The notes under the pieces were generated by a model, which saw only the letters and a list, made by a program, of their open reading frames with translations, had not been told where the DNA came from and did not search any database. A stretch of 64,000 nt of DNA from Cristatella mucedo (Eukaryota > Bryozoa > Phylactolaemata > Cristatellidae). Positions within the stretch are counted from its first letter, which is position 1, and the number at the start of each line of letters is the position of its first letter. Where the stretch lies: contig WPIO01000007.1 of NCBI GenBank assembly GCA_009760855.2, positions 9,993,501 to 10,057,500 on the forward strand, written 5' to 3'. A program made the translations under genes and the position numbers. This document shows positions 4,591 to 50,025 of this stretch, piece by piece.

Positions 4591-5671
4591 AATAATAATA
4601 ATGTACTTGATAAAGCGCCCTCAGAGAACTTAATCTTTTTCTAGGCGCTTTACATTTGCTGCAAAGGGAAATGCAATTGAATGGCGAGTAAAATCATGCT
4701 TGATAATCAAACAAAATGAATAACATGGTTAGGAGTGACATGCACAGGGTCAGCATGCAAATGTGGTTAGTGGCAGCATGCACAGTGTCAGCACGCATAA
4801 GCACGTGAAGGACGAATCACAGGGACCCACTAAAGGCTGTCCTAAATAGGTGTGTTTTTAAGTTCCTTTTAAATGTGGTTAGGTCAGGGCATGTTCTGAC
4901 GCAGGTCGGGAGGGAGTTCCAGGCTTTGGGAGCATACGAACTAAATGCACGGTCTCCAAAGGATTTAAGGTTTGCACGGGGTATTTGTAGATTGTTGGAT
5001 TCCAAAAAGCGGGTGGTACGATGCTTTGCCTGATGGAGGAGTATATCGGAGAAATAGTCTGGAGCCATAGAATGAAGGGACCTAAAAGTGAGCGACAAAA
5101 CCTTAAAGTCAACCCGTTGCTTGACTGGTAGCCAGTGCAGGTCGGCGAGAAGTGGAGTATTGTGGCAACTGCGTCGCTCACGACAGACAAGCCTGGCTGC
5201 AGGGTTTTGCTTCAGTTGCAATCGATTGATCGCACATGCTGGTAGGCCAGTAAGCAGTGAGTTGCAGAAGTCGAGACGGGATGTCACGAATGTATGGACC
5301 AACTTGGACGAGGTATCCTTATCTAAACAAGCCCGAATTTTAGCAATTCTATGTAGCTGAAAATAGGCAGATTTGACTGTGGAGCTGATATGGTCGTCTA
5401 ACGAGAGGTCGCTTTGGAATATGACACCTAGATTTCGAGCTGATTCAACTGGAGATATGCTGCCAGAGCCAATTTTGAGCGTCAGCCTTTCCAGTGTGTG
5501 AGGTTTCGATATACGAGTTCAGCTGGTCTGCCACGACCCGTTCCAGTGTCTTTGATAGGAATGGTAGAAGGGAGACTGGGCGGTAGTTGCTCAAGTTCTC
5601 TTGGTCTAGTGTTGCTTTCTTGAGAAGAGGCCTGACTGCAGCTTTTTTGAAAGGTGGAGAAGAACTACGAG
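4588..5671 (-). mobile_element. CR1/L2-like LINE fragment, internally deleted
   Basis: Read on the minus strand, an RT fragment at about 5670-5515 (with [20 protein letters not shown], the start of the RT domain) jumps directly to its C-terminal part at about 5510-4817. That part contains LHWLPVKQRVDFK and FGDRAFSSYAPKAWNSLP, the standard end of CR1-type reverse transcriptases. The middle of the RT, including the catalytic FADD-type box, is missing. The 3' UTR continues to 4588, carries the AAGCGCC element and ends in an ATT microsatellite. It sits inside the endogenous virus between the integrase and the small membrane gene. Confidence 0.85.
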
Positions 5672-26094: not shown

Positions 26095-28277
26095 TCAGTT
26101 CGCCTTGTCCTGCGACGAGCTGCCGTTGCTGAGCGTTCGTGGAGTCGCAGGCAGGCTGGGGAACGTGAACCAGTAGGGCGACGGCGGGCCGAAAGAGGAC
26201 AGCGAGGGCGTGCTGAGCGACGAGTGAGACGACGCCGGGCCGAACGAGGAGGGCGTGCTGAGAGACGACAAAGGTGCCGGGCCGATGTAGGGCAGCAGTG
26301 GCTGGCCCGGTGGCGGCAGCAGCAGCAGCTGCTGCTGCTGCTGCTGCTGCAGCGACAGCGTAGGCAGTTGCATTGGGTAGTGGCCGCCGCCCATCGGCGA
26401 CTGTGAGGTGGCAGCAGCTAGCAGTTGCTGCTCGTGCTGGGTGCTGGCTGTGACCGGCGGTGCTACGGGTGCCATCAGCGAGCTCGGACCGGCAGAGACC
26501 GAGGCAGAAGCAGCAGTGGGGGTGAGCTGGGTCTGGCCGTCGGCATGCATCGCCGAACCGTTATGAGCAGGCGGCTGAGACCTCTGCTCGGGGGTCAGAG
26601 AAGCGCCCGAGGCGGCCGATGCTTCGGCCAGAGGCAGCTGCGCCATTGTGACGGTGAGGGATGGCTGTGAGGCCGGTGTCAGCCCATGCAGCTGGCCGGC
26701 GTGCGCGACATGAGACATATGTGTGTTAGCCGGGGCAGCAGCTGCTAGCAGCGGCTGGTGGCCATGAGCAGCAGCACACGGCAGTTGGCCGTGATGAGGC
26801 ATGCCCGAAGCTCCGAGTGACGACTGAGACGACTGAGCAAAAGGTGGGTATGCCAAGTGGCTGAAAGGAGGCAGGCTGTGCTGTGCATGGTGGTACTGCT
26901 GTCCTGCTGAGTGGTACAACATCTGGCCATAGGGTGATGTAGGAGCATGGTGCATAGGCTGGCTGAAGTAGGGATTCATCGGATGGCCATGAGCAGCAGA
27001 GGAGCCAGAGGCATACGGCGAGAAGTGCTGCTGAGTGCTGTGATGCATGGAGTAGAGGTGGTGTGGCAGCTGCTGCTGCTGCTGCTGCTGCCCGTGAGCA
27101 GCGATGGTGGCAGCCGAGTACACCGAGTAAAGCGACGGCGGAGCAGCCGATGGCACCGAGCACTGCTGTTGCACGATCTGTTGGGAAAACGGCACTTGCT
27201 GTGGCTCCTCCGATGAAGACGCCAGGCTAGCGCCGCAGCCGCCGACCACAGGCCGCACTGGCTGCTGACCGTCGGCGGCCGAAGTGCCTGCCGGCATCGG
27301 CTGAGGCATTAGCGAGTGCAGCGACGAGGTGAAGGCTGGCTGGTGCTGATGGAAGTGCTGCGGCAGCTGAGGAAATGGCTGGGCAAAAGAAGGCATAGGC
27401 GTCGGGAGTTGGTAGGGCTGTGCGAATGTCGCTAGAGGTCTCGGCAGCTGTGAAGTAGGCAGAGGCTGCACGAACGGCGACTGCAAAGTGGGCAAAGGCT
27501 GCACGAACGACGACTGTGAAGCAGACAGAGGCTGCACGAACGACGACTGTGAAGCAGACAGAGGCTGCACGAACGACGACTGTGAAGCAGACAGAGGCTG
27601 CACGAACGACGACTGTGAAGCAGACAGAGGCTGCACGAACGACGACTGTGAAGCAGACAGAGGTTGCACAAAAGACGACTGCGAAGCAGACAGAGGCTGC
27701 ACGAACGACGACTGTGAAGCAGACAGAGGCTGCACAAAAGACGACTGTGAAGCAGACAGAGGCTGCACGAACGACGACTGCATAGCAGACAGAGGCTGCA
27801 CGAAAGACGACTGCAAAGCAGACAGAGGCTGCACGAACGATGACTGTGAAGCAGACAGAGGCTGCACAAAAGACGACTGTGAAGCAGACAGAGGCTGCAT
27901 GAATGACGACTGTGAAGCAGACAGAGGCTGCACGAAAGACGACTGCAAAGCAGACAGGGGCTGCACGAGCGACCACTGCGATGTGGGCAAGGGCTGCACG
28001 AACGGTGACTTTCCAATAGCACCGAGCTGCTGAGGCGGCAGCTGCTGTGGTTGCTGTGCGGCAGTGGCAGTCGTCGTAGTCGTCATCGTCGACTGCATCG
28101 ACGGCTGGTCGGACGCTGGCTTGAGTGGCAGCAGGCAGCGAGTAGCTGCCTGGAATTGCTGCCGAGCAAGAGCTGGCTGCGCCTGCGGTGGCTGCTGCTG
28201 CTGTAGCAGCTGAGACAGCTCAACGGAGGAGGCAGAGAATGAAGATAAGCAGGGTTCGGCTGCTGCTGCTGCTGCTA

Positions 28278-28309
<32 letters not shown>

Positions 28310-28736
28310 GCTGCTGCTGCTGAGTCGTCGTCGGCAAGCGGCTGCTGCGGCGGCGAGTCGGGTGCACTTTGAGCACGTGACGAGTGACGTGAGGAACGCC
28401 TGGGCCGCTTTGGCTTGCTGCATTCGGCTTCACCGTCGACTTCAGCTGAGGACTCAGAGCGGAGCAGAACTTGCCGACCCTCACGCACAATGCTGGCCTC
28501 ATCGAACATCGTCTCCAGCAACAATGGCGGTATCTTGCACTTGTAGTCCAGTCGCACTGCTGTGACTCGCTCGTTGTGTCGCACCGATATCGTTCTCAGG
28601 TCGGTGACTTTCATCAGGATCTTGGCCCAGTGCAGGGGTTGGGTGGGTCGGGTTGTTATCATGTAACTTCTCAATGCGGTCAGCAAAGCGTCCTGGCTGC
28701 GGTCCACAATCTTTGAGCAGCGAAGTCCGGTCCTGT
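26095..28736 (-). CDS. THR: thyroid hormone receptor, last coding exon: end of LBD plus about 800-residue C-terminal extension
   Basis: Acceptor AAATTTTCAG at 28737-28746; the exon opens with two bases that complete the Asp codon begun in the previous exon. The first 80 residues are the end of a thyroid-receptor ligand-binding domain: TGLRCSKIVDRSQDALL (helix 9-10), ILMKVTDLRTI (helix 10), the histidine in SVRHNERV that aligns with the hormone-contacting His of helix 11, and PPLLLETMFDE, an AF-2 helix with one residue more than the usual LFLEVF. Ordinary receptors end here. This frame stays open for about 800 more residues to TGA at 26097-26095. The extension runs in order: a basic Ser/Arg patch, poly-Ala, Gln-rich stretches, 17 repeats of SQSSFVQPLSA, then a His/Gln/Pro/Ser-rich tail with several poly-Gln runs. 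Substitutions between the repeats are mostly synonymous, which supports translation. Confidence 0.85.
27463..28023 (-). repeat. 33-bp coding minisatellite, 17 units
   Basis: Seventeen units of exactly 33 bases, starting at 27463 and every 33 bases to 27991, encode the 11-residue repeat SQSSFVQPLSA of the receptor's C-terminal extension. The first and the last two units are the most diverged. Because the period is a multiple of three, all other frames are open as well. Confidence 0.95.
28257..28320 (-). repeat. GCT/CTG trinucleotide run
   Basis: Imperfect GCT/CTG repeats encode the three poly-Ala tracts of the receptor extension in the sense frame. Confidence 0.85.
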
Positions 28737-28933
28737 CTGAAAATTTGACATCTTAATACGGTTAGGATAAGGCATACTACTCATTGCAGTAGCCTGCACT
28801 GTGCTATGTGGGGCAGGAGCAGCATTTCCAGCTACGACGACAAGAGCAGGGTTTCTAGAGCATACAGACTGCAGCAACTCGAGAAGCCACACACGCGCAC
28901 ACACACACGAGCATGCATTCACACACGTGCATT

Positions 28934-28951
28934 TATATATATATATATATA

Positions 28952-29048
<97 letters not shown>
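28934..29048. repeat. TA then GT microsatellite
   Basis: TA repeats at 28934-28953 followed by about 47 GT units at 28955-29048, within the last intron (28737-29479) of the receptor gene. Confidence 0.95.
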
Positions 29049-29050
<2 letters not shown>

Positions 29051-29479
29051 AGCCACTCGTACACATATACACATTCATGTGATTAATATATATGAATGCA
29101 TATTCATATGATTTTAGCCACTCACTTTTAGCAGGATGTGAGTTGTTCGCCCTTTCTCACTCTCACAGCCCGGCGGTTTGGCAGTGCATGTATGTATGAA
29201 TGTAAGTATTATATTCTCAGCCTGAAACTCCACAAAGCCAATATGAATAATTGGGTTTTACGAAGGAGATTTTACTATAGAAAACTAACAGCTCAATCCG
29301 CTTTCTGTATACTTGATACTCGAGGGTAGTGGGTCGCAGGAACTATTAGCGTGCATTCCCAAAGCTAAGCTGGGCAGCAATTGTGTGAGAAGAGTCACAG
29401 TCGCATAGATACGATAGCAGTGGGTGGCTCCGGCTGCCAGCAGCCAATCGCGAGCACAGCAGGAAGGACAGCCACTCAC

Positions 29480-29741
29480 CGGACTGCATGAGCAAGATGG
29501 CAGCAAGGAGAGCCACTTCGACAGTGTCTAAATGCAGTTGCCAGATGCCCTGAGCAAACTCGAATATGGGTTCGAGCAGCATGTTGACGCTCGAGTCCCC
29601 GGTCAACTGAGACTTGAATAGTTTGAATCCATCGGCGAGCTCCAGCGCCGGCTGGCTTATGTCGTAGCGGTAGGCGGCCCGCAAGCACATGATCTCGATG
29701 CAGCATGACCGGAGCAGCAGCATCTGATCTTCGCCGTTCAT
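29480..29741 (-). CDS. THR: thyroid hormone receptor, LBD exon (helices 4-9)
   Basis: Acceptor CTCTCGGTGCAG before 29741, donor G|GTGAGT at 29480/29479; 262 bases, phase 0 in, phase 1 out. It encodes MNGEDQMLLLRSCCIEIM, the nuclear-receptor signature region, then CLRAAYRYD, which keeps the Arg that contacts the hormone carboxylate in vertebrate receptors. A segment ending DTVEVALLAAILLMQSG corresponds to helix 8-9. The match to thyroid receptors is far better than to other NR1 groups. The ATG at the exon start is an internal Met, not the start of translation. Confidence 0.92.
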
Positions 29742-29797
29742 CTGCACCGAGAGTTGCCGGTGGCATGCATTGAAGCAAGAGTGGTCATTTAAGCAAA

Positions 29798-29800
<3 letters not shown>

Positions 29801-29834
<34 letters not shown>

Positions 29835-29856
29835 GAGAGAGAGAGGGAGAGAGAGA

Positions 29857-29924
<68 letters not shown>

Positions 29925-29935
29925 GGGAGAGAGCG
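29801..29935. repeat. TA then GA microsatellite
   Basis: TA repeats at 29801-29831 then GA repeats to about 29935, inside the 312-base intron between the two middle LBD exons. Confidence 0.95.
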
Positions 29936-30053
29936 CGAGCCAGGCAAAAGCTAGCAGGGGCGGCTCCAACAGCTTGCCAGCAGCTAGTGGCACTGGCCGA
30001 GGGAGAGGGGACCAGGCTGAGAGCCGGCCGGCTCCCTGACAGACAAGACTTAC

Positions 30054-30170
30054 CAGAGTGAATCCGGGTACCTGCTTTGCAAAGTCGACCACTTTCAAAA
30101 TTGAAGGGGCCATTATTTCTCCGAGATGTTGGAGCACGTTTGTGCCTGTTATCGCATCCTTGCTTTCGAG
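30054..30170 (-). CDS. THR: thyroid hormone receptor, LBD exon (helix 3)
   Basis: 117 bases, 39 codons, phase 0 at both ends. Acceptor CTCTCGTTCAG ends at 30171 and donor CTG|GTAAGT starts at 30053. An in-frame TAA a few codons upstream of the acceptor fixes the exon start. It encodes GEIMAPSILKVVDFAKQVPG, the helix 3 motif (VVDFAK) of the ligand-binding domain. The region between helix 1 and helix 3 is shorter than in vertebrate thyroid receptors. Confidence 0.88.
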
Positions 30171-30523
30171 CTGAACGAGAGTAATCGGCGAGGAACATTA
30201 GCTTCAAGCTAGCTCTCGCCCTGGACGAAGCGGCTAGCTCTCACTTGCAACTAGTGCGGAAGGGACGACGACCGGAAGAGCTCGGTCCGACTTCGGGCCT
30301 AGCAGAGGCTGCCTGCTCGTTGCCTGCTCAGGCTGCACTAGCAAGAGTGTCGCTGGCGGCCCTGAACGATGGCTCCTGACATTATGAGAATGCTCGAAGC
30401 ACTCAAGCACTATGCCAGCGAAAAGAATCGCTTGCCAAAATCACTGGACGGTGGCACTGTCGAGCCATGACGACAGCCGCGGCCGATGACAGCAGGCCCC
30501 GGAGGCAAGAAAGAGCCACTTAC

Positions 30524-32196
30524 TTTCGTCACGGTCTGGTCGTAAGCTTTCGAGACTGTATCAATGACTTTGATGTCTTCAGCTGTCATACGATTGGGGA
30601 ACTGGCAATAGTGTGCTGCCGGCAGCCCCGCTGCTGCCGCTGCGGCCATGCATGAGCAGCACAACGTGACAGTCGGCACTGCGACAGCCGGCACTTCTGC
30701 AGCCGGCACTTCTGCAGTCGGCACTTCGGCAGCCGGCACTTCGGCAGCCGGCACTTCGGCAGCCGGCACTTCGGCAGCCGGCACTTCGGCAGCCGGCACT
30801 TCTGCAGCCGGCACTTCTGCAGCCGGCACTTCGGCAGCCGGCACTTCGTCAGCCGGCGCTTCGGAAGCCGGCACTTCGGCAGCCGGCCATGCGGCAGCCG
30901 GCCATGCTGCAGCCGGCCATGCGGCAGCCGGCCATGCGGAAGTCGGCCATGCGGCAGCCGTCATTGAGGCAGCCGGCATTTCGGCAGCCGGCATTTCGGC
31001 AGCCGGCATTGCGGCAGCCGGCCATGCGGCAGCCGGCATTGCGGTAGCCGGCCATGCGGCAGCCGGCAATGCGGCAGTCGGCCATGCGGCAGTCGGCCAT
31101 GCGGCAGCAGGCCATGCGGCAGCCGGCACTGCGGCAGCCGGCCATGCGGCAGCAGTCATTGAGGCAGCCGGCATTGCGGCAGCCGGCACTCCGGCAGGCG
31201 TCCAATCGGCAGCCGGCATTGCGGCAGTGGGCCATGCGGCAGCCGTCATTGCGGCAGCCGGCATTGAGGCAGCCGGCATTGAGGCAGCCGGCATTGAGGC
31301 AGCCGGCATTGAGGCAGCCGGCATTGAGGCAGCCGGCATTGAGGCAGCCGGCATTGAGGCAGCCGGCATTGAGGCAGCCGGCATTGAGGCAGCCGGTATT
31401 GCGGCAGCCGTCATTGAGGCGGCCGGCATTGAGGCGGCCGGCATTGAGGCGGCCGGCATTGCGGCGGCCGGCATTGCGGCGGCCGGCATTGCGGCGGCCG
31501 GCATTGCGGCGGCCGGCATTGCGGCGGCCGGCATTGCGGCGGCCGGCATTGCGGCAGCCGGCATTGCGGCAGCCGGCATTGCGGCAGCCGGCATTGCGGC
31601 AGCCGGCATTGCGGCAGCCGGCATTGCGGCAGCCGGCATTGAGGCAGCCGGCATTGAGGCAGCCGGCATTGAGGCAGCCGGCATTGAGGCAGCCGGCATT
31701 GAGGCAGCCGGCATTGAGGCAGCCGGCATTGAGGCAGCCGGCATTGAGGCAGCCGGCATTGAGGCAGCCGGCATTGAGGCAGCCGGCATTGAGGCAGCCG
31801 GCATTGCGGCCGGCACTGCGGCAGCCGGCCGTGCAGCAGCTTGCCGTGCGGCAGCCGGCACTGCAGCAGCCGGCACTTCGGCAGCCGGCACTGCGGCAGG
31901 CAGCACTTCGGCAGGCAGCATTTCGGCAGCCGGGTCTAGCTCTAGCGGCAACTGTGGGGAGCAGGAGGCAGGGTTGGCAGCTGCGGCAGCATCAGCAGTA
32001 GCAGCCTCACTGGCCACTGTAGTTGCAGCAGCAGCCTCGGCAGCTGCCGTCTCGGTCGAGGAAGCAAAATCCGATGTCATCTCCAGCACCACTGCCATCT
32101 CCATCGCCATCTCTCTCTCCAGATCTGTTCTCCGTCGATCTCGGTTACTTTCGATGAGCTTCCTCTTGGCCAGTCGCTGCTTCTCGTTGAGAACCA
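30524..32196 (-). CDS. THR: thyroid hormone receptor, hinge exon with giant Ala/Pro repeat
   Basis: Acceptor TTTACTTTGCAG before 32196, donor ACGAAA|GTAAGT at 30524/30523; 1,673 bases, open throughout, phase 1 in and phase 0 out. The first codons finish the DBD C-terminal extension with LVLNEKQRLAKRKLIESN and RDRRR, a near copy of the thyroid-receptor hinge and its nuclear localisation signal. The last codons (MTAEDIKVIDTVSKAY) are helix 1 of the LBD. Between them are about 500 residues of Ala-rich sequence, mostly MPAAS, MPAAA, WPAAA and VPAAE repeats. The hinge of known receptors is only a few dozen residues. Both ends of the exon are solid. That the repeat itself is translated is likely but unproven, since a 15-base repeat has no stops by construction and an unseen intron could remove it. 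Confidence 0.7.
30667..31930 (-). repeat. 15-bp minisatellite, roughly 80 units
   Basis: Units of 15 bases of the type GGCAGCCGGCATTGA (plus strand) fill 1.26 kb. Sub-blocks share variants: TTCGG units at 30667-30890, CATGCGG units at 30880-31240, GAGGC units at 31260-31390 and 31640-31800, and GCGGCGGCC units at 31420-31550. This shows local expansion of variant units. Confidence 0.95.
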
Positions 32197-32865
32197 CTGC
32201 AAAGTAAACGATAGTGCAGCACGGCACGGTAATGGGGCTCGGGATCGCCACTGGAGGGGGGATCTCCGGAGGGACATCGCATCCGGGGCGATGGCGGCAG
32301 CGGCGTCGGCGGCCTTTGCACAGTGGCCCAGTCACGGCGAAGTGATCACGTTGGTCAGCGGCTCCAACTGCTTAGCACAGGTCCTTAGCTCAGTCCTCGT
32401 CGTGGCACCTCCCTCGAAGTATGTACAAAGCAAGCAGCTAGCCGGATAGCAGCTACTTCAAAATAGCAGACTTTTCAAGCCTCAAGTAAGTATCTTATTT
32501 TTGGACTCATAACGAAGGTTCACTATTCTTAGAGCAGCCGGGATAGTCGCGTCCCCGAAACACAATCTACCCACAGCTCATCTGCGATAGCCAATCAATC
32601 GGGACAAACGACTCGGCTGCTGCATTGACTAATGAGAGGCAGTGCGTAGCTTTGCCTACGGTGCAGCTTTGCCCAGCTGCCTCACCCGCTGAATCTTTCC
32701 CGGCTAGGCCCTCGAGTTAAACCTCGCTCTGCCGTTGCCGTCGCTAGAAACCCTTTTTGGCGTCACTCGGAATCGCGTTCGGACACTGTTAGAGGCCTGT
32801 GGGGGCGGTGGCAGGGTGCTGTGGCAGGCTGAGCAGCTGCCTCCTTTCCTCGAACTCCGGTATGA

Positions 32866-32990
32866 CTTATTTGTGCAGCGCCGCAAGCAAACTCAATCTC
32901 TATCCGGGCGCTTTGTATACGCCGCCGGGCTCGAGCTCACGACTTCCGGATCGTTGAAGGTGAGAGCGAACCTTATACTTACGGGGTTGG
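32866..32990 (-). mobile_element. tRNA-like SINE, family 2, in receptor intron
   Basis: In reverse orientation: TGTGCAGCGCCGCAAGC, GGGCGCTTTGTATACGCC and the B-box region GGGCTCGAGCTCACGAC. Confidence 0.7.
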
Positions 32991-33267
32991 GTGGGTGGGT
33001 GGGTGGGTGGGGGGGGGGAGAGAGCCCCCATTAGGGTGTGCTCAAGTGCAGAACGGTCGGAGGCTGAGAGAATAAACTTTGCCGCGAGCAGGGACCAATC
33101 CCTAAACCTCTGGCTTTCTGGGTCTGTGCTCTGTCGATTGTCGGCGACACCGGAATGCGAGACACTATTTAGTCACCACTGACAGCATCCGTATATCCCA
33201 CTTCTTTTTTGCAGAGGGCCTTCGGGCTGGTGCAAAACTGCTGCAACAGCCCTCTGGGCCGCCAGAA

Positions 33268-33370
33268 ATGAGATAATAATAATAGTAAATACGATGGTAA
33301 TAACAGGAAAGCATTCTAAACGGCCCTTGGAAAGCCAAATCTCTTTTGCGGGCATTTTGTAAATTCTTGA
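33268..33370 (-). mobile_element. diverged LINE 3' end in receptor intron
   Basis: A degenerate AAT/AGT microsatellite is followed by GGCCCTTGGAAAGCC, AATCTCTTTTGCGGGCATTT, a weak match to the LINE tails elsewhere. Confidence 0.45.
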
Positions 33371-33860
33371 GTGGAAGTAGCTAGCTTCTTAGCGGTGACG
33401 TGTTCAATTTTAACACGACCACACAAAGAAAATATCATATCAACAAAGCACGCGTTTCGGCGACTTTGACGCTCTCCCGAGCTCTGCGAGTCTTTTCGCA
33501 TTCATAACGGCGCCGAAGCAGCAGCGGACAGCAAGATTGTGCTGCTGTCCGAGCTTTCTTTCAAGCCAAATTCAACAGGCATTTTAAACGTCCCCAACGT
33601 CAGCCTAGCAAGACAAGACAAACCGGCGCTCCGGATTAACGCGGCTTAGCTCAGCCCGAGGCTCGCCGGCGCTTTATTTTAAATCCGACTGGCTCGGCAG
33701 GCGGAGAGCAGGCGCCGCCCCCCTCCCCCGGCGGAGAGCAGGCGCCGCCGTCCTCCCGGGCGGAGTACCGGCGGCCTGTATGTAGGGGTGCCAGGTGGAA
33801 GAGAGGAGACACAGCGAGTGACCAGCCAACCAGCCGCGGCGCTTGCGTGTGGGCACTCAC

Positions 33861-34002
33861 AGTCGGTAGTCATTCCCACTTTTATGCACTTTTCGAATCT
33901 GCAGTACTGACACTGGTTTCTCGAAGCCTTGTCGATCCGGCATTCCATGGTAAACTTGCAGAGGTACTTCAGGCCTTTCTGCACGGTTCTCCGAAAGAAG
34001 CC
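33861..34002 (-). CDS. THR: thyroid hormone receptor, DBD exon 2 (second zinc finger)
   Basis: 142 bases. Acceptor CCGATGCAG ends at 34003; donor GACT|GTGAGT at 33861/33860; phase 0 in, phase 1 out. It begins [11 protein letters not shown], the end of the P-box helix, and continues with the four Cys ligands of the second finger in C-x5-C-x9-C-x2-C spacing (CKFTMEC, then CQYC), ending CIKVGMTTD. The segment [10 protein letters not shown] followed by CRFEKC is typical of NR1A and differs from retinoic acid receptors. The intron after CEGCK sits where many nuclear receptor genes have one. Confidence 0.93.
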
Positions 34003-34145
34003 CTGCATCGGCAAACGGATAAACGCCGCCAGCTCAGCACAAGCGCCACCTTCTGGGCGGCCTCCACTTGGCGCTACGGCGGCTGCGCTGCGGCTGCTGC
34101 GCTGCGGCTGCTGCGCTGCGGCGGCGGCGCTGCGGCGGCACGAAC

Positions 34146-34261
34146 CTTGCATCCCTCGCACGTCATACTGCGGTAGTGGTATCCCGTGGCCGAGTCAGCA
34201 CAGACCACGCACAGCTCGGGTCCGTTGGTGAAGTCCATGTAGCTCGGTATGTACGGCGCTG
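34146..34261 (-). CDS. THR: thyroid hormone receptor, DBD exon 1 (first zinc finger)
   Basis: The exon ends TGCAAG|GTTCGT at 34146/34145, then a 143-base GC-rich intron follows. It encodes [23 protein letters not shown] and MTCEGCK: all four Cys ligands of the first finger and the CEGCK P-box, which recognises AGGTCA half-sites. The conserved YIPSY lead-in is specific to thyroid receptors. The upstream border is uncertain. TTTCGTACAG gives an acceptor at 34262, but the frame is open to a stronger acceptor, CTTTTTTCCTCGCAG, which would start the exon at 34597. The only in-frame ATG here is the Met of YMDF, so an upstream exon probably supplies the start. The DBD binds DNA in the nucleus as a heterodimer with RXR in known animals. 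Confidence 0.92.
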
Positions 34262-36408
34262 CTGTACGAAACGAGCTGACCTTACGCAGCCGCCGGCCGG
34301 GAAACGAGCGAACGTCGACCGACAGATCGAACGCCCGTATGCACAAATAACAGTGCCCACAGCGGAGCCGCGGTGGCCGTGCAGAGCCGCGAGCGAAGGC
34401 CACGGCGACGCGCGACGCGACTATAGTTTCGTTTCGCCGCCGGATACGCGGAAGCGCAGAGCGACGGAGCGAGCGACGGAGCGAAGGACTCGTTACAGCG
34501 GTCGCTGAGCAGCCTCCGTTCTCTAAACCTACAGCGGAGTCTCGCTCCGCCTCGGCTCCTGCTCGCCATTTTTTCACCCGGAAAGACACGCGGAAGACTG
34601 CGAGGAAAAAAGCCGTCGCTTAGCGATCGCGTCGTAACCTACCGCGCTAGCGGTTCGCGACACGGATAGCTATGCCTCTCCTGCGCCCATTTAGGTTTGT
34701 TTGTATCGAAGAATAATTTCGTGTATCGGGCGGCCGAAAGATGCAATGCTCGCTGTAGCATCCAAGTTGGAGGCTTCCGAAGGCAAACGGCGGTCGCTCG
34801 ACTCCGTACATGAGTGCGAAACGGTTACGGCGTAGCCGGTCGATGCGGACAGAAAAGCGAACCGTGGATACGGCGGAAAGACAGCGGCGGGAGCTTATTC
34901 GAAGCGACGCCGCCGACGGCGGTCGCGATGGAAATATCGAAATCGGTGCCTTGGGGGAGGGGCTGGAGAAAAGCGATCAAGATTTATTGGCCAGTCATCG
35001 CGCAGGCTGAAATCTCCCTAGTTCTCGCAAAAAAGATTGGTCCACCGGCGTCGGTGCCCTTTCCGAGAGTGCTCAGGAGCAGTCACACGCTCCCCGACGC
35101 TCTTATTAGTAGAAGCCGAGGGACTATTTCTCGCGCGAGGCCGTCGCAGCTGCCCTCCGAGGCTCGCCGACGTCCTCGACGGCTCGCTATCGACGCCGCC
35201 GCCGCCGGCGGCGGCGCCTCCCAGCGGCTCGCACACCCGCGCCACCGTTCCCGCGCTTTGAGCTGCAGCAGCTGGGCATCGAGCATGCGCCTCGAATGCC
35301 GACGCGAGGCTGCGACGCCAACGTCGAGCGAGCTCCGGATCGCTCACGCGACTACACAAAAGAGGCTGTTAAATCAGCCAATTAGTCCCTCAACGCCTAC
35401 CGCGGACTCGGCGCGAGCTTCATGCCGAGTCCGCGGTGAGGCGCGTGTTTCGACGCTGGTGCGGCGGCGGCTGAGGAGGCAGCAACTATTTAGAGGCCCG
35501 CCCTTTCGCTCGCGCCCAACCAGCGCGTCTCATCTGGTCAATTTATCGTGAGCTGTCACTTACCGCCCGCCCCTCGCCAAGTAATTACGGCTGCAGCCGT
35601 CGGATGCCACTCTGCCATTGCGGTTCGCCCATCGGTTAGGGGGTGGTAGTCGTCCGCCGGAACCGACTCTAATTTCTTTTTCTCGGCGTCCGGCGGGAAC
35701 CCGGGAGGTTGCAAGCGGCCACCCCTTTTTTATCGAGCAGTGCTACAGTGAGCTCGCGTCGCTCGCGGTCGATTGTCGGGGAAACCGTCGCTAAGCTTCC
35801 ATCCAGGCAGGGCACAGGCGCTCGCCGCCACCGAAGCGCTATCGCGTAGTTGGTACAGTCTGACGCACGATGCTTCGAAAAAACAAACAGCTGCTGCTCT
35901 GCAGGTGGGTGGGTGGATGGGGGCGGGAGTGGCCAGGCGACCGCCTAACCGCCGCCGCGGCGGCTCGATCAGTCTCGCTGCCGAAATGCTGGCTCGCCAC
36001 GCTGACCGCGAGGGGTCGACGGAGAAAGATGCAGCCGTCGGCGACTAGCGTTTACCGTACGGTTGCTCGCCGCAGGGTTTGATCTCGTCGGCGGTCAGGG
36101 GACGTCGCAGAGCCAGAAGCGGCGCTTTTGCCATTGGCTAGTCGACTGCAATTATCCCTAAGCGGCGGCTGAGCAGCCGGCAATACCGGAGTCGACGGCT
36201 GCGGCGGAGACTAGCCGCAGCTCGCCCGATCGCTTCAGTCGCTGCCTGCTCAGCCCGCGCCGGAGCAGACGCATCGTTGCGCCGCCGCCGGGCCTCTCGA
36301 TCGATCCTTCGACTCGCGACCCCTACCGCCTCTAGGCGCGAACTCCCAAGTCCGCTCTCTTTCTCTCCAGTTTCCGGAGCCGTAGCTCGTCAAACAACCT
36401 CTCTCTTA
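34262..36408. other. CpG-rich 5' region of the receptor gene
   Basis: Very GC- and CpG-rich sequence upstream of the first recognised exon, probably holding promoter, 5' UTR and A/B-domain exons, none of which I can pin down. A strong 3' splice acceptor on the minus strand lies at 34598-34612. A SINE tail is at 35346-35386. Many long ORFs on both strands are Arg/Ala/Ser-rich by-products of composition. Confidence 0.5.
35346..35386 (+). mobile_element. SINE family 1 tail only
   Basis: GACTACACAAAAGAGGCTGT and TAAATCAGCCAATTAG match the last 40 bases of the family 1 SINEs; head and body are absent. Confidence 0.65.
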
Positions 36409-37128
36409 AGCTGCGTTTACACGACAGACTTTCCCACAGATTTTGGACAGATTTTCCACAGATTTGGGCTACTAAGCCATCATACGTCACATTTTTTTTG
36501 GGGGAGGGGAGGAGCCAAGTCAGTAGACTCACCAGCGGGAGAATGTGTCTAAACTCTTTTGGTCCAGCCGACCAATCAAAACCCCGGGCTCATCACATAC
36601 ACCCAGAGCCAAAATAAAAATGGCTGATGTTCGTAGGCTCGAGTTACATTGAGGCGTTCAGAGTAGAAATTGTAGGATTCTCCTCGAATACGGTATTCTT
36701 AGGCGTTGTAACCAACTATTAAGCCTTTTCTACATAGCATACGCCGTTCGTCCGTTTATCAATACCACAAACAAACCCGTAACGGGTGCATTACATAGCA
36801 GTATACACCCGCATAAACGCACATACTTGGTACCACTCTCTTTCCGAAATTTTTTTTTTAAATGCGAATCTTCATTTTATTTATATTCTTCTCATACTAC
36901 TCTACAATGATGACTGCAGCGGCGAACTCAACTTCTGACTGCGTTGACTTGGTGTCTCCGGGGAAACCCTCTTTCATACCAACCACCCAGATTAGAGAAC
37001 GGGCTATGGGCGAGACTACGTCGGGCATCGAATCTGTCGTGGGCGGGTCTTAATCTGCCATGTAAACGTCCTAACTTTGAGGAAAGTCTGTGTCTGTCAG
37101 GAGGAAAGTCCGCCGTGTAAATACCGCT
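36409..37128. mobile_element. PIF/Harbinger-like MITE
   Basis: Inverted ends of about 27 bases: the left starts AGCTGCGTTTACACG and ends GACTTTCC at 36409-36434; the right, reverse-complemented, starts AGCGGTATTTACACG and ends GACTTTCC at 37128-37103. The element is flanked by TTA at 36406-36408 and 37129-37131, the three-base TWA target duplication typical of PIF/Harbinger elements. It is 720 bases long with no transposase; subterminal CAGATTTT motifs repeat. A 63-codon ORF with a hydrophobic start (36862-37053) lies inside and is probably meaningless. Confidence 0.75.
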
Positions 37129-49606: not shown

Positions 49607-49712
49607 TCTTTGTTTGGTCCTGTAGTTTAATCTGCTGGTCTTTGCTTGGTCCTCCTTAGAGCCAATAAAAGAAAAAAGCCTTGCCTGTCAGTGTGGCCAG
49701 CTTTTACGAAAG

Positions 49713-50025
49713 ATGCTATTAGCTGTCCCATTCCTCCGCTTAAAGACAGTTGGCGACAGAAGCTTTAGCTCTGCAGGTCCTAGACTGTGGAACTCGCTTC
49801 CACAATTCTTACGAAACGACAACTACTCTCCAACTGCCGACTATGGCACATATTTTTCAGCGGTCCTGAACTGCTACTTCTATGCTACTCACTACCTCAA
49901 CTGCTCTCCTGACTCTGCTATGCTTTCCACTTTCTCTTTGTTGCATGAGACGAAGTCTGTTGGGTACCGAATGCGTACCGAAAGCCGCTTAGGCTGTGAG
50001 TGCGCTATACAAAACTCTCCTGCGT
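49713..50025 (+). mobile_element. CR1-like LINE fragment, RT C-terminus
   Basis: The frame contains FLRLKTVGDRSFSSAGPRLW and NSLPQFLR, the conserved end of CR1-type RTs, and is followed by GAGTGCGCTATACAAAAC, the second LINE tail type. Confidence 0.75.

Follow-up and report, generated by a model that had tools for sequence, protein, structure and literature searches.

Can a thyroid hormone receptor (TR) reach several times its usual length and still be a working gene, and what would its added regions be for? The question is raised by a locus of the bryozoan Cristatella mucedo, contained in a stretch of 64,000 nucleotides of contig WPIO01000007.1 (assembly GCA_009760855.2, positions 9,993,501 to 10,057,500 of the forward strand), hereafter called the window, whose own numbering is used throughout. 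On its minus strand, splice signals and reading frame delineate a nuclear receptor of six exons between positions 26095 and 34261, with one long extension in the hinge between the DNA-binding domain (DBD) and the ligand-binding domain (LBD), and another in the tail, or F domain, that follows the AF-2 helix. With a probability of about 0.8 we read it as a functional, single-copy TR of the NR1A type, with a hinge inflated by slippage and a maintained F domain of about 800 residues. Few nuclear receptors have been studied as thoroughly as TRs, yet their invertebrate members have received little characterisation.

Gene Structure and Length

The first exon of the model (34146-34261), recovered by tblastn as well as from the spliced frame, encodes the N-terminal signature PYIPSYM and the first zinc finger, and may extend further upstream. 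It is followed by an exon for the second zinc finger (33861-34002, located by Pfam and the spliced frame), which ends at the T-box in phase 1, and, as read from the spliced frame, by a long exon carrying the T/A-box extension, the hinge and the helix 1 region of the LBD (30524-32196) and by two further LBD exons, for the helix 3 region (30054-30170) and for motif I to the helix 8 region (29480-29741). The last exon (26095-28736) comprises the end of the LBD, the AF-2 helix (PPLLLETMF), an F domain of 796 residues and a TGA stop codon. All five introns are bounded by GT and AG with phases 0, 1, 0, 0, 1, and neither a stop nor a frameshift occurs in any of the six exons; splice signals and spliced translation thus confirm the exon number, phases and open frame of the original prediction. 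Translated from the ATG at 34238, the frame runs through 1,642 codons without an in-frame stop to the TGA at 26097-26095, giving a predicted protein of 1,642 residues and 169 kDa. Long runs of GT, AT and GA dinucleotides are found within introns of the gene (28955-29048 and 29800-29933).

Where the protein begins is a separate matter. About 1,760 codons had originally been counted from position 34597; the large size stands, the count does not. Position 34597 merely follows an AG acceptor, and the ATG at 34238 is the first in-frame ATG after the in-frame stop that ends at 34620, so that about 119 codons are left without an initiator and were rejected as they stand. Among them, only the PYIPSY directly before the ATG at 34238 has outside support. 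Since the frame just upstream of 34238 reads PYIPSYM, the exon would begin at or above 34261 (acceptor tttcgtacag, phase 1), and we infer that an upstream exon supplies the start. A scan for such a coding exon returned none with a donor score above 6.5 and four phase-1 donors, each with 25 open codons or more, at scores from 4.0 upwards, all donors here being scored with a crude position matrix. The nearest and highest-scoring of the four (5.6) belongs to a candidate first coding exon on the minus strand at 35564-35618 (MAEWHPTAAAVITWRGAG), which is in frame with 34261 and, if joined to it, would yield 1,668 residues; seven further ATGs lie between this candidate and position 36500. The evidence supports a receptor of at least 1,648 residues, perhaps 1,668. 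Two points must be held against our reading of the gene, namely that the start codon is only tentatively placed and that the gene model is drawn from splice signals and frame.

Identity of the Receptor

Both domains named in the original prediction are found by Pfam in the spliced protein, zf-C4 with 105.8 bits (1.6e-30) and the LBD model Hormone_recep with 88.6 bits (5.4e-25). The P-box motif CEGCKG can be read directly in the DBD. Against PDB chains, the DBD with its extension matches TR-beta with 147.4 bits, the next best family being HNF4A with 99.6 bits, and a TR-type T-box/A-box C-terminal extension is present (TDLVLNEKQRLAKRKLIESNRDRRR, aligned to TR-beta 3m9e/2nll). Identity of the DBD to TR-beta amounts to 59 of 82 residues, and to 46-55% for the other 20 rows of a DBD-only tree of 23 rows. 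In this tree, whose only two TR rows are both TR-beta, the receptor groups with these two, in line with an NR1A placement, at a moderate support of 83/91 that falls below the program's 95/80 mark, and its branch is flagged as long (1.04).

In 77 of 193 columns the LBD has the same residue as TR-alpha, and it keeps R262, R266, H381 and E403. Its best single PDB match is a retinoic acid receptor (RAR), that of the oyster (6eu9, 142.5 bits), followed by TR-alpha (139.5 bits), as might be seen if the gene were of the RAR type (NR1B) and not NR1A. This is extremely improbable, and an RAR identity was rejected: the DBD is not closest to RAR (37 of 69 residues identical to each of three RAR rows, against 59 of 82 to TR-beta), the T/A-box and PYIPSYM are TR features, and the same genome holds a distinct RAR-type DBD (L011, G000:C221; 119.3 bits to a PDB RAR chain).

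Four introns of the Cristatella receptor lie at the positions JP1 to JP4 (CEGCK/GFF, TD/LVL, PGFTL/MNGED and MQS/DRTG, the slash marking the junction), with the exact vertebrate residue of JP3 assumed by us, and there is one further intron. JP1 to JP4 are conserved in TRs (PMC2045677). The same study describes (G/P)YIPSY(M/L)XXXGPE(D/E) as the N-terminal signature of non-chordate TRs, which is found here with four residues instead of three before GPE and an L after it. Two further non-chordate marks, a Met at DBD position 16 and the lack of a His-Pro insertion, emerge from alignments set beside that text (PMC2045677). NR1A membership, as originally proposed, is well supported by the DBD match, the tree, the signature and the intron positions; judged from sequence, we consider the DBD settled in this respect and the assignment of the whole receptor very likely. 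The modest tree support, the long branch, the RAR match of the LBD and the AF-2 core LLLETM, which is one position off the published hydrophobic consensus (PMC2045677), all speak against it.

The F Domain

The tail of 796 residues that follows the AF-2 helix is clearly coding. Its frame contains no stop in 796 codons, and the other forward frames contain 12 and 8. The 612 codons outside the repeat (stop codon counted) have no internal stop, whereas sequences drawn from a first-order Markov null carry 9.8 on average, none of 2,000 being free of stops. Within the tail, Tandem Repeats Finder places a 33-bp array of 16.9 copies on the minus strand at 27448-28004, with the unit FVQPLSASQSS. Neighbouring units differ by 25 synonymous and 16 non-synonymous changes where 28% synonymous would be expected, an excess by which the repeat looks constrained; this expectation assumes equal mutation rates, and the changes from one unit to the next are not independent of each other, which takes some weight from the comparison here and from its counterpart in the hinge. 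Ser, Gln, Ala and Pro are abundant in the tail, which also includes a basic stretch, KPKRPRR, as a possible nuclear localisation signal; its LXXLL motif (LSQLL) is no more than chance would give, being matched or surpassed in 0.44 of shuffles.

Low complexity marks both extensions, with a mean 20-residue entropy of 2.07 in the hinge and 2.79 in the tail as compared to 3.47 in the LBD and 3.49 in the DBD. They may be disordered, a suggestion that is not helped by FoldIndex, which calls neither of them disordered (0.38 for the hinge, 0.15 for the tail) and is a weak guide here, the folded DBD scoring -0.05.

The Hinge Array and Its Possible Removal by Splicing

The hinge spans 511 residues between the A-box and the helix 1 region and contains, in frame, a 15-bp array of 84.5 copies (minus strand, 30670-31933; Tandem Repeats Finder) with the units MPAAS, MPAAA, WPAAA and VPAAE. 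The two low-complexity regions that had been noticed in the hinge and after AF-2 are hence real, and consist of these 15-bp and 33-bp arrays set within longer extensions. No stop interrupts the array in the coding frame, as compared to 4 and 1 in the other forward frames. Its residues appear not to be conserved, because neighbouring units differ by 10 synonymous and 64 non-synonymous changes with 27% synonymous expected, and the repeat looks unconstrained. Slippage would be an ordinary origin for it, given that the share of tandem repeats in the other receptor loci fetched from this genome ranges from 0 to 30%. An unconstrained repeat in the hinge and a constrained one in the tail of a single protein would separate passive expansion from maintained function. 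By these comparisons the coding status of the hinge array seems less certain than that of the tail, and it is a further mark against our reading that one reverse frame is open over the array too.

Could the array be an intron, either constitutive or alternative? A splice from 32011 to 30582 would remove it within a cryptic in-frame intron of 1,428 nt (minus strand, 30583-32010) and leave a receptor of about 1,170 residues, near the size of schistosome TR-alpha; in the tail, 510 residues could be lost through a comparable pair, 28434 to 26903. The existence of these two weak in-frame pairs is unfavourable to our reading. Their donors, CCA/GTGAGG at 32011 (1.7 bits) and ACG/GTGAAG at 28434 (1.1), each have a phase-matched acceptor, and the scores of both fall within the range of the five accepted donors, 0.79 to 6.71, which leaves the two pairs credible by score; the lack of conserved residues in the hinge array would also suit an intron. 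We nevertheless consider such splicing unlikely. The 1,428 nt are a multiple of three with no stop in the coding frame against 7 and 3 in the others, a pattern that favours coding, and the single register shift noticed among the 15-bp units amounts to a whole codon. Skipping the entire hinge exon would shift the frame, the tail repeat shows its excess of synonymous changes, and the donor scores come from a crude matrix.

Copy Number and Assembly

The 572-Mb genome was searched with the DBD (119 residues) and the LBD as queries, only the best candidates being scored. Three of the 45 DBD matches are exons of this locus; the 42 others are 32-62% identical, and none of them reaches beyond residue 104 of the query. 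Four of the 12 LBD matches likewise fall on this locus, with eight others at 28-46% identity. No second TR paralogue was found among these best candidates. An RXR-type finger (L027, judged by eye against an RXR-alpha row) and an EcR-type DBD (L015, G000:C88) are encoded in the genome alongside the TR. A cluster of about five diverged nuclear receptor genes, with five DBD exon and five LBD matches, was noticed at G000:C133:5021900-5163294.

Long stretches of identical 15-bp units pose difficulties for assembly and are likely to be variable in length, and one may ask whether the assembly misstates the length of the repeats, or whether the gene is a decaying copy, the true protein being much shorter. 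We regard this as very unlikely, in view of six exons without stop or frameshift, of tail codons that are open outside the repeat as well, and of the lack of another TR copy among the best candidates scored.

Comparison With Known Receptors

The 400-500 residues taken as the family norm in the original prediction fit the TR of the oyster Crassostrea gigas (479 residues; PMC4692385) but are not universal, as Schistosoma mansoni TR-alpha and TR-beta have 1,115 and 847 residues (PMC2045677) and a further schistosome TR has 836 (PMC3438019). In constructs of schistosome TR-alpha the DBD ends at Ala288, and part of the hinge together with the LBD spans Val739 to Glu1115 (PMC2045677), which puts about 450 hinge residues or more between the two constructs, from Ala288 to Val739, so that a long hinge has precedent. 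As far as covered in that study, the S. mansoni receptors share with the Cristatella receptor their NR1A membership, long protein, long hinge, JP2-JP4 introns and N-terminal signature. They differ in that JP1, present in Cristatella, is lost from the schistosome genes, in that their AF-2 reads YLHELF or YFHELF and not LLLETM, and in that the Val739-Glu1115 construct would leave TR-alpha little room for an F domain, which measures about 800 residues here (PMC2045677). The oyster TR, like ours, is a single lophotrochozoan TR with altered ligand-contact residues, but is of ordinary size (PMC4692385). Vertebrate TR-alpha and TR-beta have the chordate His-Pro insertion that the Cristatella receptor lacks, and are without its large added regions.

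For the tail, the closest likeness is to a different receptor, EcR, which also has a low-complexity C-terminal F domain. The EcR F domains of Aedes aegypti (about 107 residues) and Drosophila (about 190) are described as among the longest, and that of Aedes forms metal-induced condensates (PMC7999165). The Cristatella F domain is 4-7 times longer than these and built partly of 33-bp repeats. The open literature that we searched, on TRs with long hinges, lophotrochozoan F domains and repeat-rich receptor tails, describes no such receptor; precedent exists for the long hinge but, in the literature covered, not for an F domain of close to 800 residues. Larger than the whole oyster TR, this tail offers a natural test of what an F domain does.

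Predicted Function

The two zinc fingers and the T/A-box extension would most likely bind AGGTCA-type half-sites, alone or with the RXR encoded in the genome, and the LBD would switch between repression and activation. The schistosome TR-alpha occupies half-sites in monomeric or homodimeric form; pull-down assays show an interaction of RXR with either schistosome TR, though mixing these TRs with RXR gave no heterodimer gel shift in the experiments covered (PMC2045677). DR4 sites with up to one mismatch number 0 in the window (chance 0.76).

At most, a thyroid-hormone derivative is a plausible ligand, because the contacts are partly changed and the oyster TR sets a precedent. Of the TR-alpha contacts, R262, R266 and H381 are kept, and R228 is replaced by Lys, S277 by Ala and F401 by Leu. 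In the oyster TR nine of eighteen ligand contacts are changed, and the receptor may not bind T3, T4 or TRIAC (PMC4692385).

As to the extensions, slippage of the 15-bp minisatellite would have inflated the hinge exon into a spacer rich in Ala and Pro, in which the precise sequence is of little consequence, and the Ser/Gln/Ala/Pro-rich F domain of the last exon, at about 800 residues, would be kept as protein and probably serve as a multivalent surface for transcriptional coregulators. Condensate formation or novel coregulator binding had originally been suggested for the low-complexity regions; the one sign of selection seen in the sequence concerns the tail repeat. More speculatively, and with considerable doubt on our part, the repeat-built F domain, with a Phe about every 11 residues over its 17-unit array, might be a selected module enabling condensates or coregulator recruitment independent of AF-2, with a hinge array of variable length tuning the distance between DBD and LBD within the species.

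Elsewhere in the Window

A tRNA scan and an Rfam search at gathering thresholds returned nothing. Two fragments, 4820-5518 on the minus strand and 49626-50024 on the plus strand, resemble, by eye, the C-terminal part of a reverse transcriptase from a non-LTR retrotransposon; neither has a Pfam match. The first 4 kb of the window are AT-rich (32% GC) and carry open frames on the plus strand at 123-2716. The frame at 123-977 has no Pfam match, that at 981-1403 resembles a double-jelly-roll domain below the Pfam cut-off, and that at 2309-2716 matches Phage_T7_tail and YadA_stalk above it; by its sequence the region looks like a virus-derived or Polinton-like element.

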